From contig NZ_CH672390.1 of the NCBI RefSeq assembly GCF_000152865.1, forward strand, positions 930,001 to 994,000: a stretch of 64,000 bases of DNA, in the 5' to 3' direction. Position numbers and translations under genes: made by a program. Shown here piece after piece: positions 9,902 through 62,848 of the stretch; positions within the stretch are counted from its first letter, which is position 1, and every line of letters begins with the position of its first letter. The notes under the pieces were generated by a model that had not been told where the DNA came from, did no database searches, and saw nothing but the letters and a program-made list of their open reading frames with translations. The stretch comes from Erythrobacter sp. NAP1 (GTDB lineage: Bacteria; Pseudomonadota; Alphaproteobacteria; Sphingomonadales; Sphingomonadaceae).

Positions 9902-10010
9902 CAAGCGCGACTGCGCGTCCGGAGGGGTGGCGCCGAAGGCGTCGGGCCCCGTAGGAAAGCCAAGCGCGCGGATGCGCGCGCCGGCGCTTGAGGCACAAAA
10001 GTAAATGACG

Positions 10011-10178
10011 GGACCACCATGGGTCGGTGCCGGGAAATCCTCTGACGCCTAAAACGTCAGGTGGGCGCCGTATACTCCGGTCCCACAGCCGGACTGGTGG
10101 ACCAGAGCAGGGACAGCTCCCTTGGATTGCTTATAGCCTCAGGGATTTTCTGTGGCTCGTGCCGGGCAGCCCCGCCAC
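10011..10178 (-). ncRNA. ssrS: 6S RNA (approximate ends)
   Basis: 6S RNA binds sigma70-RNA polymerase and down-regulates it in stationary phase. Evidence: it occupies the ~340 bp gap between zapA and 5-formyl-THF cyclo-ligase on the same strand, the conserved location. The ends can pair (GGTGGCGGG near the 5' end with CCCGGCACC near the 3' end, one mismatch). There is a hairpin CTGACG-N7-CGTCAG toward the 3' side, and open purine-rich segments around the middle fit the central bubble. Exact ends are estimates. No good ORF fills the gap. Confidence 0.75.
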
Positions 10179-21391: not shown

Positions 21392-21455
21392 GTTGCGCTA
21401 CCGCTTCGCTGCTTGAGCGGGTAGCTTGTTGCGCTACCGCCTTGCTGCTTGAGCG
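21392..21455 (+). repeat. Two imperfect direct repeats after tRNA-Leu
   Basis: Two 28-nt copies at 21392-21419 and 21428-21455, 36 bp apart, differing at two positions (26/28). Both begin GTTGCGCTACCGC and end CTGCTTGAGCG. They fill the space between tRNA-Leu and the next gene. No gene or promoter is obvious in them. They could be a tRNA-linked repeat or slipped duplication. Confidence 0.6.
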
Positions 21456-24187: not shown

Positions 24188-24322
24188 GCGGCTGGGCCGC
24201 GTGGACCGCTTTCCTACCGGGAGGGAATGTGGCAGCGTCAAAGCATGCTGATCGCACGCGTTTCGAGGGGTGTTCCTAAGAGGATTTTCGGACCGAGAGG
24301 CGAGGGACAGTTTTTACCGCCA

Positions 24323-24359
24323 GGACCGTGTAACATGCGGTCCACTTCTCAACCAAGTG
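24323..24359 (+). promoter_or_regulatory. Shared 37-nt element upstream of M20 amidohydrolase (copy 1)
   Basis: Contains an inverted repeat GGACCG-N9-CGGTCC (24323-24343) and an overlapping CACTT-N7-AAGTG (24343-24359). The same 37 nt occur with two mismatches on the minus strand at 62495-62531, upstream of another amidohydrolase. It ends 52 bases before ATG 24412. The matching orientation and spacing indicate a regulatory site (operator or 5' leader structure). The regulator is unknown. Confidence 0.7.
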
Positions 24360-24411
24360 CCTCAAAAGGCTTGGCTTGTAGGAAATGGCTCAAACGAGGG
24401 GAAAGACCGAC

Positions 24412-25767
24412 ATGATGAAGCACCTGATGGCAGGCGCAGCAATGGCAATGGCGCTTTCAATGAGCGCCACTCCGGCACTTGCCGAGGCTCATGCAGAAGC
24501 AGGCGCAGATGAGCTTCGCGCAGCTGTGATGGAAGACATGCCGGGCCTGTTTGAGCTCTACAAGGACTTGCATGCTAATCCTGAGCTCAGCTTTCAGGAG
24601 TTCGAAACCGCAGCCAAGTTGGCAGAGCGGGCAAGGGCGCTCGGCTTTGAAGTGACTGAGGGTGTTGGCCAGACCGGCGTCGTTGCTGTGATGGAGAACG
24701 GCCCTGGCCCCGTGGTGATGCTGCGCGCCGACATGGACGGCCTTCCGGTTATCGAACAGACCGGCCTGCCATACGCCTCGAAACGCACGGCGGTTCCGGC
24801 AACGGGCGTTGAGACAGGCGTCATGCACGCCTGCGGTCACGATACGCACATGGCCGCGTGGGTCGGCGCGGCGCAGCTGCTGGCCGAGCGTAAGGATGAC
24901 TGGTCGGGCACGCTGGTCATGATCCTCCAGCCAGCCGAGGAAACGGGCGAGGGCGCTCTCGCCATGCTGCAAGACGGCCTCTACGAACGCTTCCCCAAAC
25001 CCGACTACGTGCTCGCCTTCCACGATGCCGCTCAGGCGCCTGCGGGCTTCATCGGCTATTCGAAGGGCTACGCGCTAGCCAATGTCGACAGCGTCGATGT
25101 CGTGATCCCCGGTATCGGAGGCCATGGTGCCTATCCACACACGACGGTCGACCCGGTGGTGATCGGCGCGAATGTGGTGACGCGCCTGCAAACGCTGGTC
25201 AGCCGCGAGATCAGCCCGCTCGACCCGGCGGTGGTGACAGTTGGCAGCTTCCGCGCTGGCTCCAAGCACAACATCATCAGCGACGAAGCGCGCCTGCAAA
25301 TCACCGTGCGCAGCTACACCGACGAAGTGCGCGCTGCATTGCTCGAAGGGATTGAGCGAATCGCTCGCGGCGAGGCGATGGCCGCGGGCATGCCCGAAGA
25401 CAAGCTGCCGAGCGTGACGGTGCAGGATCCGTATACGCCATCGACCTACAACACGCCCGAATTCACCGAGAACGTGATGGCGGGCCTGAAAGAGCGGTTT
25501 GGCGACCGCGTGCGCGAGACGCCGAGTGTCATGGGCGGGGAGGACTTCGGCCAGTTCTACCGCGCTGATCCCGAAACGGTGGAATCGCTGATCTTCTGGG
25601 TCGGCGGTGTGCCGATGGAGCAATACCTCGCCTCAGAACGCGGCGAGGTCGAGTTGCCGAGCCTTCACTCGCCCTTCTGGGCGCCTGACGCCGAAGTGGT
25701 AATCGCCACCGCGACGGAAGCGCTGACGGCAGCGACGCTGGACCTGATGCCGAGGAGCGGCGGCTAG
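24412..25767 (+). CDS. Secreted M20 family amidohydrolase
   Basis: 451 aa. Signal peptide MMKHLMAGAAMAMALSMSAT..ALAEA. The mature part is an M20D peptidase/aminoacylase (hippurate hydrolase, IAA-amino-acid hydrolase type): VVMLRADMDGLPV, THMAAWVGAAQLLAE after HACGHD, and PAEETGEGA are metal/catalytic segments. Acts in the periplasm, presumably on N-acyl amino acids or peptides. I chose ATG 24412 for AGGGGAAA upstream; an in-frame ATG 27 bases earlier would put charged residues ahead of the signal peptide. Confidence 0.85.
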   Translation: MMKHLMAGAAMAMALSMSATPALAEAHAEAGADELRAAVMEDMPGLFELYKDLHANPELSFQEFETAAKLAERARALGFEVTEGVGQTGVVAVMENGPGPVVMLRADMDGLPVIEQTGLPYASKRTAVPATGVETGVMHACGHDTHMAAWVGAAQLLAERKDDWSGTLVMILQPAEETGEGALAMLQDGLYERFPKPDYVLAFHDAAQAPAGFIGYSKGYALANVDSVDVVIPGIGGHGAYPHTTVDPVVIGANVVTRLQTLVSREISPLDPAVVTVGSFRAGSKHNIISDEARLQITVRSYTDEVRAALLEGIERIARGEAMAAGMPEDKLPSVTVQDPYTPSTYNTPEFTENVMAGLKERFGDRVRETPSVMGGEDFGQFYRADPETVESLIFWVGGVPMEQYLASERGEVELPSLHSPFWAPDAEVVIATATEALTAATLDLMPRSGG

Positions 25768-25824: not shown

Positions 25825-25902
25825 GTTCTCCTCCCCAGGAGAATTGGTGAAGGTGTTAGGTCGGCCCGGCGCGCTGTGGCGCAAGGGGCCAAAAGCGCTT
25901 TC

Positions 25903-26088
25903 CTACTCGGCGTTGGGTACGTAGGTCCCAAGACGGTGGTGCAGCGCGTTGATCTTGGCGAGCTCGTCACGGTCCTCGGTGCCGCGAGCGTGGCTTTCAA
26001 GCGCGCGACGAAGAAGCTTCATGTCGGCGGTCGAAAGCAGCGCACGAGCGCGTGAGGGTTCTTTGCTCGGGGTATCGGTATCGCTCAT
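25903..26088 (-). CDS. Small hypothetical protein
   Basis: 61 aa, soluble and charged: an N-terminal Ser/Pro-rich stretch, then a helix (STADMKLLRRALESHARG) and a second helix ending HHRLGTYVPNAE. GAGAGAG precedes ATG 26088. It lies just after isocitrate lyase on the same strand (122 bp gap). Function unknown. Confidence 0.55.
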   Translation of the reverse strand: MSDTDTPSKEPSRARALLSTADMKLLRRALESHARGTEDRDELAKINALHHRLGTYVPNAE

Positions 26089-61398: not shown

Positions 61399-62445
61399 CT
61401 ACGCAAGCACCTCTTCGATGCGGTAGAAGCGTGCGGCGTTCCCCGCGTAGAGGTCAGCCTTCTCATCTGCGCTCGCATCGGCGGTGATCCGCTTGAAGCT
61501 GTTCCACAGAACGGGATAGGTCGCGCCCCAGCGGTCGACGGGATAGTTGCTTTCGAACATCGCTCGCTTGGTGCCGAACGCCTCGATGCAGGTCTCGATG
61601 TAGGGCTTCCAGAGGCGAGCAAGCTCTTCGGAGCCGATCCCCGCTGCTGGGCCTTCTGCGGGCAAGGCGCAATTGTGCATGGCGAGGCCGCCCAGCTTGA
61701 CCATCACGTTTTCGCATTTGCCAAGCTCGATGATGTTGTCGCGCCAGATGCCGAAGCGCTCCTCAAGCTTTCCGGTATAGCTCGCCATGCCGAGAGGGGT
61801 GCCGCAATGATCGAGACAGATCGGGGTCTCCGGAAAGGCCCGAGCGAGGTCGATCACATCGGGGATTTGTGGCTCGAGTATCCATGCATCGAAGCTAAGG
61901 CCGCGCTTGCCAAGTTCCGCGAAGCCCTTGCGGAAGCCTGTATCCAGATAGCGCTCAGGTGGGTGAGCGAATGGAGGGCCGAGCACTTCGGGGTCGGCAT
62001 CCCAGGCGCCTGCATGGCGGATACCGCGGAACCTACCCGGTGCTGCGGCCTGCAATGCATCGAGCACCTCGCCAGCTTCCTCGCCAAGCATCAGGTCAGC
62101 GTGCCCGACGATTCCGGCGCATAGCTTTGCAGGGCCATAGAGCCCGCTTGCGCTTTGGGCGGCGACGCCGTTCACATATTCGACTTCGCCCACGACCTTT
62201 TTCGCCTCTCCATAGGCGCCGTTGTAGAACGCGCCGCACTCCATGAAGACGGTTGCGATTACATTGTGACCGCTCGACGCCACCTCCTCATTGAACTGGT
62301 CGAAGGTGTAGTGGGCGACTGGCACGAGCGTCTCGATGAAGCGATGATGCGGCTCTGGGAACATCGGGAGCATGGGCCGCAAATCCCACAGGTGATGGTG
62401 GGGGTCGATGATCGGCAGATTGGGTTCAAGGATCGCTTCGGTCAT
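61399..62445 (-). CDS. Amidohydrolase family protein
   Basis: 348 aa metal-dependent TIM barrel (amidohydrolase-2 type, as in PDC lactonase or 4-oxalomesaconate-type enzymes). LPIIDPHHHLWDLR is the metal-binding start; CLDHCGTPLG and FESNYPVDRWGATYPVLW are later metal/active-site segments. Substrate unknown. A 37-nt element shared with the M20 gene lies upstream. Confidence 0.84.
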   Translation of the reverse strand: MTEAILEPNLPIIDPHHHLWDLRPMLPMFPEPHHRFIETLVPVAHYTFDQFNEEVASSGHNVIATVFMECGAFYNGAYGEAKKVVGEVEYVNGVAAQSASGLYGPAKLCAGIVGHADLMLGEEAGEVLDALQAAAPGRFRGIRHAGAWDADPEVLGPPFAHPPERYLDTGFRKGFAELGKRGLSFDAWILEPQIPDVIDLARAFPETPICLDHCGTPLGMASYTGKLEERFGIWRDNIIELGKCENVMVKLGGLAMHNCALPAEGPAAGIGSEELARLWKPYIETCIEAFGTKRAMFESNYPVDRWGATYPVLWNSFKRITADASADEKADLYAGNAARFYRIEEVLA

Positions 62446-62494
62446 TGCGTCAGATGTCTCCTGATCTGGGATTGGGAGGTCTTTGAATTACAGT

Positions 62495-62531
62495 CACTTA
62501 CTTGAGAAGTGGACCGCATGTTACACGGTCC
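62495..62531 (-). promoter_or_regulatory. Shared 37-nt element upstream of amidohydrolase (copy 2)
   Basis: On the minus strand it is identical to 24323-24359 at 35 of 37 positions. Inverted repeats GGACCG-N9-CGGTCC and CACTT-N7-AAGTG are both kept. It lies 49 bases upstream of ATG 62445, against 52 bases for copy 1. Both copies lie in sense orientation. Confidence 0.7.
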
Positions 62532-62848
62532 AGGGCGAAAACTCCCCTGGCTCCCTTTGCTTGCTTCGCTTGGGCAGAAAATCACATCGCGCATGGCATT
62601 CATGACCGATGTGTAGCGCGTCGGCCAAGAGTAGGAAACGGTCGCGTGCTAGCCCAGCCAGCCGTGTCTCAATCTAGCCAGATGCTCGCTTACACGCGGA
62701 AATTGTGTGAAAAAATCGCATGTCAGCTCAAAAAGATGCGGCAATCTCAAAAATTGTGATAGCCTTGACATTGGGCAGCGAATTGCATTCATTGCTCCTT
62801 ACCTAACGGTAAGTAGGGTCGCCAAAAAACCAGAAAAAGGGTTGAGGT
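62532..62848. other. Intergenic region without a gene
   Basis: Apart from the regulatory element just before it, this ~317 bp stretch holds no ORF with coding character. It must contain the promoters of the minus-strand amidohydrolase and the plus-strand small gene. An AT-rich run at ~62690-62760 may contain the latter, but no clear -35/-10 pair was found. Confidence 0.4.

Follow-up and report, generated by a model that had tools for sequence, protein, structure and literature searches.

The question raised by this locus is what a 37-nt sequence does in front of two unrelated amidohydrolase genes that lie 38 kb apart in the genome of Erythrobacter sp. NAP1. Within the window, that is, the whole stretch of 64,000 nt that was analysed, one copy occupies 24323-24359 of the forward strand and the other 62531-62495 of the reverse strand. 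The two are identical at 35 of 37 bases, both are in sense, and they precede the ATG codons at 24412 and 62445 by 52 and 49 bases, respectively. The initial annotation had described this geometry correctly, together with the inverted repeat GGACCG-N9-CGGTCC that is present at both sites. A second inverted repeat that it had recorded, CACTT-N7-AAGTG, is by eye absent from most of the other copies listed and is therefore probably a chance feature.

A genome-wide set of words and the genes behind it

The full 37-mer is found at only three places in the whole 3.27-Mb genome (G000) at up to three mismatches. Its 21-bp core, GGACCGTGTAACATGCGGTCC, referred to here as the word, is present in 31 copies, 29 of them exact and 2 with one mismatch; no copies with two or three mismatches were found in this genome, and a reversed-pattern control returned 0. 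The copies are divided between the forward (16) and reverse (15) strands, and the core is followed by ACTT in 26 of them, by ATGT in 4 and by ATCG in 1. According to a crude GC-frame score, 20 of the 31 point in sense at a downstream gene and 11 do not, the latter including one inside a terminase-like gene (L074) and one that is in sense before ybeY (L077); by the same score, about 9 copies point towards a convergent gene. A dispersed repeat had been expected to show itself by numerous, randomly placed or oriented copies; the copies are numerous, but their placement is not random. As a side observation, ATGT follows the word in 10/10 copies of the same-genus genome G180, versus ACTT in most copies here; the copy inside the terminase-like gene also carries ACTT, which appears to be a recent joint change.

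The two copies in the window share one anatomy. At site 1 (forward strand), a promoter-like upstream box, CTTTCCTAC, at 24209-24217 is followed by a leader ORF at 24245-24415, whose ATG lies 33 nt after the start of TCCTAC and which is open through the word, its TGA stop overlapping the gene start (ATGATG). A T-run at 24311-24315 ends 7 nt 5′ of the word core at 24323-24343, the putative binding site of the protein discussed below, and the core is followed by the own-genome extension ACTTCTC, to 24350. The M20 peptidase gene occupies 24412-25767, with an in-frame ATG at 24385 as a possible alternative start. At site 2 (reverse strand), the box TTTCCTAC lies at 62631-62638, the leader ORF at 62442-62603 runs through the word to a stop overlapping the gene start (ATGA), a T-run at 62538-62541 ends 6 nt 5′ of the word core at 62511-62531, ACTTCTC follows to 62504, and the Amidohydro_2 gene occupies 61399-62445.

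Other features of the window were seen in passing. A CTTTCCTAC box that lacks a word lies at 25898-25906, in the stretch that separates the M20 gene from an isocitrate-lyase-like gene, and another (9951-9959, reverse strand) lies a little downstream of a 6S RNA gene (10007-10175, reverse strand). There is also a 28-nt direct repeat at 21392-21419 and 21428-21455, with 93% identity and 36 nt apart.

Besides the M20 and Amidohydro_2 genes, the copies of this genome precede genes for MoaC, PPDK, a pyridine nucleotide-disulphide oxidoreductase, GcpE, PNPOx, PALP, a pterin-binding protein, GST, YbeY, RF-1, MOSC, SDR and L35. Since these are unrelated and housekeeping genes, the regulon for amide or peptide use that had been suggested does not hold. 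In other genomes, with any form of the word and counting a match anywhere within 1 kb downstream, the genes that recur are those for moaC (12 genomes, a group enriched because moaC loci were fetched deliberately), the pterin-binding protein (9, with an upstream placement in one more genome), PALP (7), lpd-like (6, in one of which the lpd-like gene is by eye a gene away), PPDK, GST, ispG and arsC-like (5 each) and M20 (3). The site is thus conserved at orthologous leaders in several genera, the moaC leader among them. Further targets, named by eye and from general knowledge, are presumably lpd, queE, ilvA, maiA, pyrC, trpA, rpsA, ruvA, moaB, arsC and others; Pfam matched neither the gene at the queE-like copy L062 (threshold 1e-10) nor that at L088 (threshold 1e-5).

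The leader module and its dialects

The word core forms the downstream end of a module of about 110 bp, in which the promoter-like box TTTCCTAC, an ATG, the leader ORF, a hairpin with T-run and the word follow each other in front of the gene. The module was characterized on 151 elements from this and related genomes, deduplicated by their 120-nt context and picked by patterns requiring GGAC..TGT, so that conservation of those letters is built into the set. TCCTAC lies within 620 bp upstream of 30 of the 31 own copies, at spacings of 69-573 bp, the far-off instances of which may be chance (as at L068, 313 bp, where it sits within the upstream gene), and within 330 bp upstream of 136 of the 151 elements. 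Alignment of these 136 on TCCTAC yields YT[TG]TCCTAC followed about 13 nt on by a G[GC][CT]A box. A strict promoter pattern gave 4 matches, each of them at an element, in 2 of 6 genomes, although it is too strict to gauge how common the box is, and looser boxes that lack a word occur in the window.

Where the spacing is below 130 bp, an ATG lies 27-43 nt past the start of TCCTAC, mostly 33-35 nt, in 102 of 115 elements, and the ORF that it opens continues through the word in 88 of the 102. The frame of the ORF relative to the word is variable (50 in frame 0, 23 in frame 1 and 29 in frame 2), hence the word is not selected as a peptide. In 45 of the 73 leader ORFs that close 15-130 nt beyond the beginning of the word, the stop overlaps an ATG or GTG, compared with 121 of 308 stops when all frames of the same stretches are counted, these 45 included, which suggests that the leader ORF is coupled to the gene.

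In 105 of the 151 elements, a T-run of at least four T stops 5-10 nt short of the word, the distance being 6-8 nt in 92 of the 151, and the flank AGTTTT, noted at the outset as partly kept, is a piece of this run; in 39 elements there is no such T-run within 40 nt. Among 2250 control windows upstream, a T-run ended 4-12 nt before the reference point in 29. Hairpins abutting the T-run in the 84 elements from other genomes have a mean of -8.2, versus -5.8 for shuffles and -3.5 for shifted windows. A cruder terminator test with a 38-nt window gave a weak mean z (-0.34 for the others, -0.56 for the own copies), so the reading as a terminator depends on the hairpins that abut the T-run.

Several other identities for the element were considered and set aside. 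A mini-ORF peptide motif, GPCNMRSMS, has its variable letters on codon positions 1 and 2 and its frame relative to the word is unfixed; a sigma-70 -10 box within the word would have a variable last base; and a leaderless start at ATGT after the word is at odds with the ACTT that this genome mostly carries there. Rfam at gathering score matched only tRNAs and 6S in the whole window and nothing at the element, nor did site 1 match any Rfam family up to an E-value of 10, which removes a known riboswitch from consideration.

Some elements carry additional parts. In 14 of the 31 own copies (by regular expression, at least two repeats), for example L078, L080, L088 and L089, the stretch from TTTCCTAC to the word contains repeat arrays of the GGTGACAC type with a spacing of 22-23 bp, and the distance from box to word increases in steps of the repeat spacing. 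In variant elements, GCTCTTTC-NNA-YYGTC takes the place of the ATG (L086 and L084 in G000; L026 in G180; L200, L201 and L203 in G006; L217, L219 and L224 in G102); 8 of 11 that were scored face a gene on the opposite strand, and it is possible that these variants mark the start of a small RNA. GTAGGA, the complement of the upstream TCCTAC, often follows words of the TGTTCC form (L234-L243 in G096; L230 and L231 in G062).

The letters of the word are mostly uniform inside one genome and differ between genomes, so that one may speak of dialects. At up to three mismatches, a 30-mer was found in 5 of 199 genomes of the family and the 21-mer in 8 of 59. The pattern GGACNNTGTNACANNNGGTCC was found in at least 20 of 199, and TCCTACN{84,114}GGACNGTGTNNC in at least 28 of 119, with a control giving at most one match per strand and genome among the matches listed. 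By eye, the 28 loci read from the latter search comprise 12 of the CGGTCC type, about 14 with a 9-nt direct repeat and 2 that look like chance; roughly half of the related genomes viewed use the direct repeat, TGTxyCAnnTGTxyC, as their word. Both halves are TGTGTC in 17 of 19 copies of G006, the copies read in G062, G096 and G102 have TGTTCC with few exceptions, and all 10 of 10 copies in G180 have TGTAAC..CGGTCC. At the trpC-moaC locus, three genomes of a single genus carry TGTAAC..CGGTCC (G002), TGTTCC (G096) and TGTGAC (G158), and G041, from the genus of the window itself, has no element there. When 12 genomes were picked solely by the word at the gene described in the next section, most genome-wide words were of that same dialect in each of the 11 listed (G203 was left out of the listing, and G210 seems to be the same as G082). 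One metagenome-assembled genome, G209 (the genome of L372), has 13 CAC-type and 6 TCC-type words, which reflects either a mixture in the assembly or a genome in transition from one dialect to another.

A terminase-small-subunit-like protein and its recognition helix

Two of the own copies are located at small helix-turn-helix (HTH) genes. One of these genes has relatives in G121, G016, G033 and G065 at 44-56% identity, and in all five genomes (5/5) the gene contains the word in frame. Its product matches PHROGs 4044, annotated as terminase small subunit, with E-values of 4.8e-18 and 5.3e-21, and is referred to here as the TerS-like protein. Pfam Sf6_terminase matched only at E=0.005, under its cut-off, and no NCBIfam family matched above cut-off. 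The AlphaFold model has a mean pLDDT of 78 and a pTM of 0.54. Against a library of viral structures the best E-value was 7e-5, with low TM-scores; the named matches in the top 12 were mostly small terminases, and the three at E<=0.001 were a terminase small subunit, Gp58 of a phage and one nameless protein. A fold search of the PDB returned nothing significant, Sf6 TerS being at rank 44 with E=5.7. By eye, the 19.5 kb around the own gene consist of host-like genes, with no phage or packaging genes, the large terminase included, and a scan of viral contigs found only two distant relatives, at 36 and 39% identity.

The distribution of the protein follows that of the element. A full-length alignment of five proteins was used to search 36 genomes, 28 classed as element-positive and 8 as element-negative; among the matches listed, 27 of the 28 positives and none of the 8 negatives had a match at E<=6e-38, a line drawn post hoc with the data already viewed, and with matches by construction in the five positives that supplied the query. 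The best E-value in the negative genomes was 1.2e-27, again among the matches listed. The sole exception among the positives, G018, has a fragmented assembly that contains a C-terminal piece of the protein, and G009, classed as negative, has one isolated word-like match. When the HTH of L081 by itself served as the query, relatives turned up in 22 of 24 genomes, negatives too; thus it is only the full-length alignment that separates the two classes.

A second scan reached 80 named loci, from Erythrobacter, Qipengyuania, Tsuneonella, Aurantiacibacter, Novosphingobium and others. The word lies in, or up to 170 nt after, the TerS-like gene at 64 of these 80 and at 85 of 110 loci overall, some of the 110 being one gene reached via two collections. 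The remaining 25 of 110 lack a word at threshold; in G026, G092 and G191 the scorer missed dialect-like words that are visible by eye at the gene, and no convincing word was found with the patterns used in G051, G048 and G086. Where read, the word at the TerS-like gene is mostly in the dialect used elsewhere in the same genome, G002 being an exception.

The HTH of the protein covaries with the word. The 85 loci with a word, less one that lacks the helix columns, gave 84 rows and 77 distinct word-helix pairs, among which TGTAAC occurs with SHQ in 30 of 31, TGTTCC with S[AP]Q in 24 of 25, TGTCAC with ARQ in 7 of 9, TGTGAC with SYR in 3 of 3 and TGTGTC with SRS in 2 of 2. Two residues of the recognition helix are involved, such that HQ corresponds to TGTAAC..CGGTCC, AQ or PQ to TGTTCC, YR to TGTGAC, RQ to TGTCAC, RS to TGTGTC and RA to TGTCTC. 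The mutual information in the 77 pairs is 1.43 of 1.90 bits, versus at most 0.59 in 10,000 shuffles. Exceptions are the TGGTCC words, which keep SHQ (5/5), TGTCAC with SHQ in G019, TGTAAC with TPM at L331, and the word in the gene of G002 mentioned above.

Shared ancestry explains part of this covariation and much of the clustering, and it limits the statistics. A helix-masked tree of the 84 rows has only about 10 changes of the word. The YR type is nested within the HQ group and the RQ type within the AQ/PQ group with modest support (83 and 80), owing to which some switches look joint. A test on independent pairs had only two supported pairs to work with; both agree, and so small a number is below the reach of significance.

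The second small HTH gene is a distinct case. In G000, this shorter terminase-like HTH ORF (L081/L254) lies in front of a GGTGACAC-type array; relatives at 73% identity are found in two genomes, L255 (G096) with one GTGAC copy nearby and L256 (G158) with four. It may encode the array's own binding protein.

Competing readings, a proposed mechanism and its meaning

Regulation through a shared, oriented cis element, as suggested in the initial annotation, is upheld by the fixed architecture, by the orthologous genes across genera and by a cognate protein to which the covariation points. The element is probably the recognition word of an orphan chromosomal TerS-like protein, placed at the end of a leader module, from where it may control the downstream gene; the genome-wide set, the module, the word inside the TerS-like gene and the covariation of word and helix are read directly from sequence. 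The order of promoter, ORF and word is the same in the TerS-like gene, at L081 (where an HTH ORF lies between) and in the short copies, which would also fit a dispersed mobile element, in which a unit comprising the TTTCCTAC promoter, an HTH gene and the word would have given rise to the short copies as non-autonomous forms, with the word as its end or target. The near-uniform words within a genome, the empty trpC-moaC site of G041 and the GTAGGA that mirrors TCCTAC could be taken the same way. However, orthologous positions across genera carry different words, and neither the tight spacing from T-run to word nor the covariation of the recognition helix is in keeping with such an element, an origin that we consider unlikely. 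In phage P22, pac lies at or near terS. The same is reported for SPP1 (PMC4737164), and the word inside its own gene, together with the match to a phage terminase family, brings to mind dispersed, pac-like packaging starts, with the TerS-like protein marking chromosomal sites for a GTA or a helper phage. That reading is equally improbable: the neighbourhood of the gene is, by eye, devoid of packaging genes, packaging sites do not need a promoter box, a T-run or a leader ORF, and the R. capsulatus GTA TerS is reported to package DNA with no specific site known (PMC6854486).

An action of the word in the mRNA, as a hairpin, an attenuator peptide or a target of a small RNA, appears slightly less probable still. 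The openness of the leader ORF through the word and the overlap of its stop with a start codon are compatible with it, as is the hairpin that GGACC and GGTCC can form in one dialect, but that hairpin is missing in the direct-repeat dialects, the shifting frame implies that the peptide is not conserved, Rfam gave no match, and words face convergent genes too. The most remote of these readings is a regulon for the use of amides or peptides. It has in its favour that M20 and Amidohydro_2 genes follow 2 of the 31 copies and that both placements are seen again elsewhere, in other genomes (for the amidohydrolase, as judged by eye), yet the list of targets contradicts it.

From the sequence we strongly infer that the TerS-like protein uses its HTH to bind the word and, more weakly, that this binding controls whether RNA polymerase enters the gene downstream. 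Judging from the geometry, regulation is probably by a roadblock at the T-run: at the prevailing spacing of 6-8 nt, a polymerase paused there would meet the bound protein, which favours roadblock-assisted termination, that is, an attenuator. Polymerase would pause at the T-run, the word-bound protein would block its path and termination would ensue, whereas release of the roadblock under some conditions would allow the downstream gene to be transcribed; where termination fails, ribosomes may reach the gene start by way of the leader ORF. Autoregulation would come about through the word in the TerS-like gene, although this word could be simply another copy of the set. A function in leaders leaves the copies that face convergent genes, about 9 of 31, unexplained; these could act as plain terminators. 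A tentative extension, for which we would stop short of the word probable, is that a packaging-site recogniser was domesticated into a global roadblock regulator of some 20-30 mostly housekeeping leaders, and that helix and words switched together several times, giving rise to species dialects and to a readable amino-acid-to-base code.

Among known systems, the TerS and pac of headful phages (Sf6, SPP1, P22) are similar in that an HTH protein matching a terminase-small-subunit family has its cognate sequence at its own gene. The TerS-like protein differs from the phage proteins in being encoded by an orphan gene among host-like genes and in having an added C-terminal region, and its words differ from phage pac in being dispersed over the chromosome by the dozen and tied to promoter-like leaders. 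The DNA-binding domain of the SF6 terminase is reported to be largely non-specific (PMC4737164), unlike the strong covariation of word and helix described above. RcGTA gp1 is likewise a terminase-derived protein encoded in an alphaproteobacterial chromosome, although RcGTA TerS is reported to have no known specific binding site (PMC6854486), in contrast to the clear word of the present system. An autoregulated transcription-factor regulon offers another likeness, in that a single factor would serve as many as some 30 sites, many of them before genes and one at the factor's own gene, and sites are absent where the full-length factor is absent. Unlike in such a regulon, the word lies about 100 bp downstream of a promoter-like box and just past a T-run, the factor descends from phage packaging, and dialects differ within one genus (G002, G096, G158). 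REP/RAYT systems consist of dispersed, genome-specific intergenic palindromes with one cognate protein. The words resemble these in being intergenic, genome-specific and served by one protein, and differ in their orthologous positions and in being direct repeats in many dialects. Among the best-ranked matches of a full-text literature search, no title or abstract describes the element or a regulatory small terminase. The system is best seen as a terminase/pac-type recognition pair put to use outside packaging, and it may be a new class of regulator.

A leader element of Erythrobacter and its relatives is now linked to a concrete protein, which suggests a third career for small terminases, besides packaging in phages and in GTAs. 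The system also opens to experiment the long-standing question of how such a protein and its target sites in a genome shift specificity together, as related species, some of one genus, have different dialects at the same orthologous sites and the matching helix residues are known.
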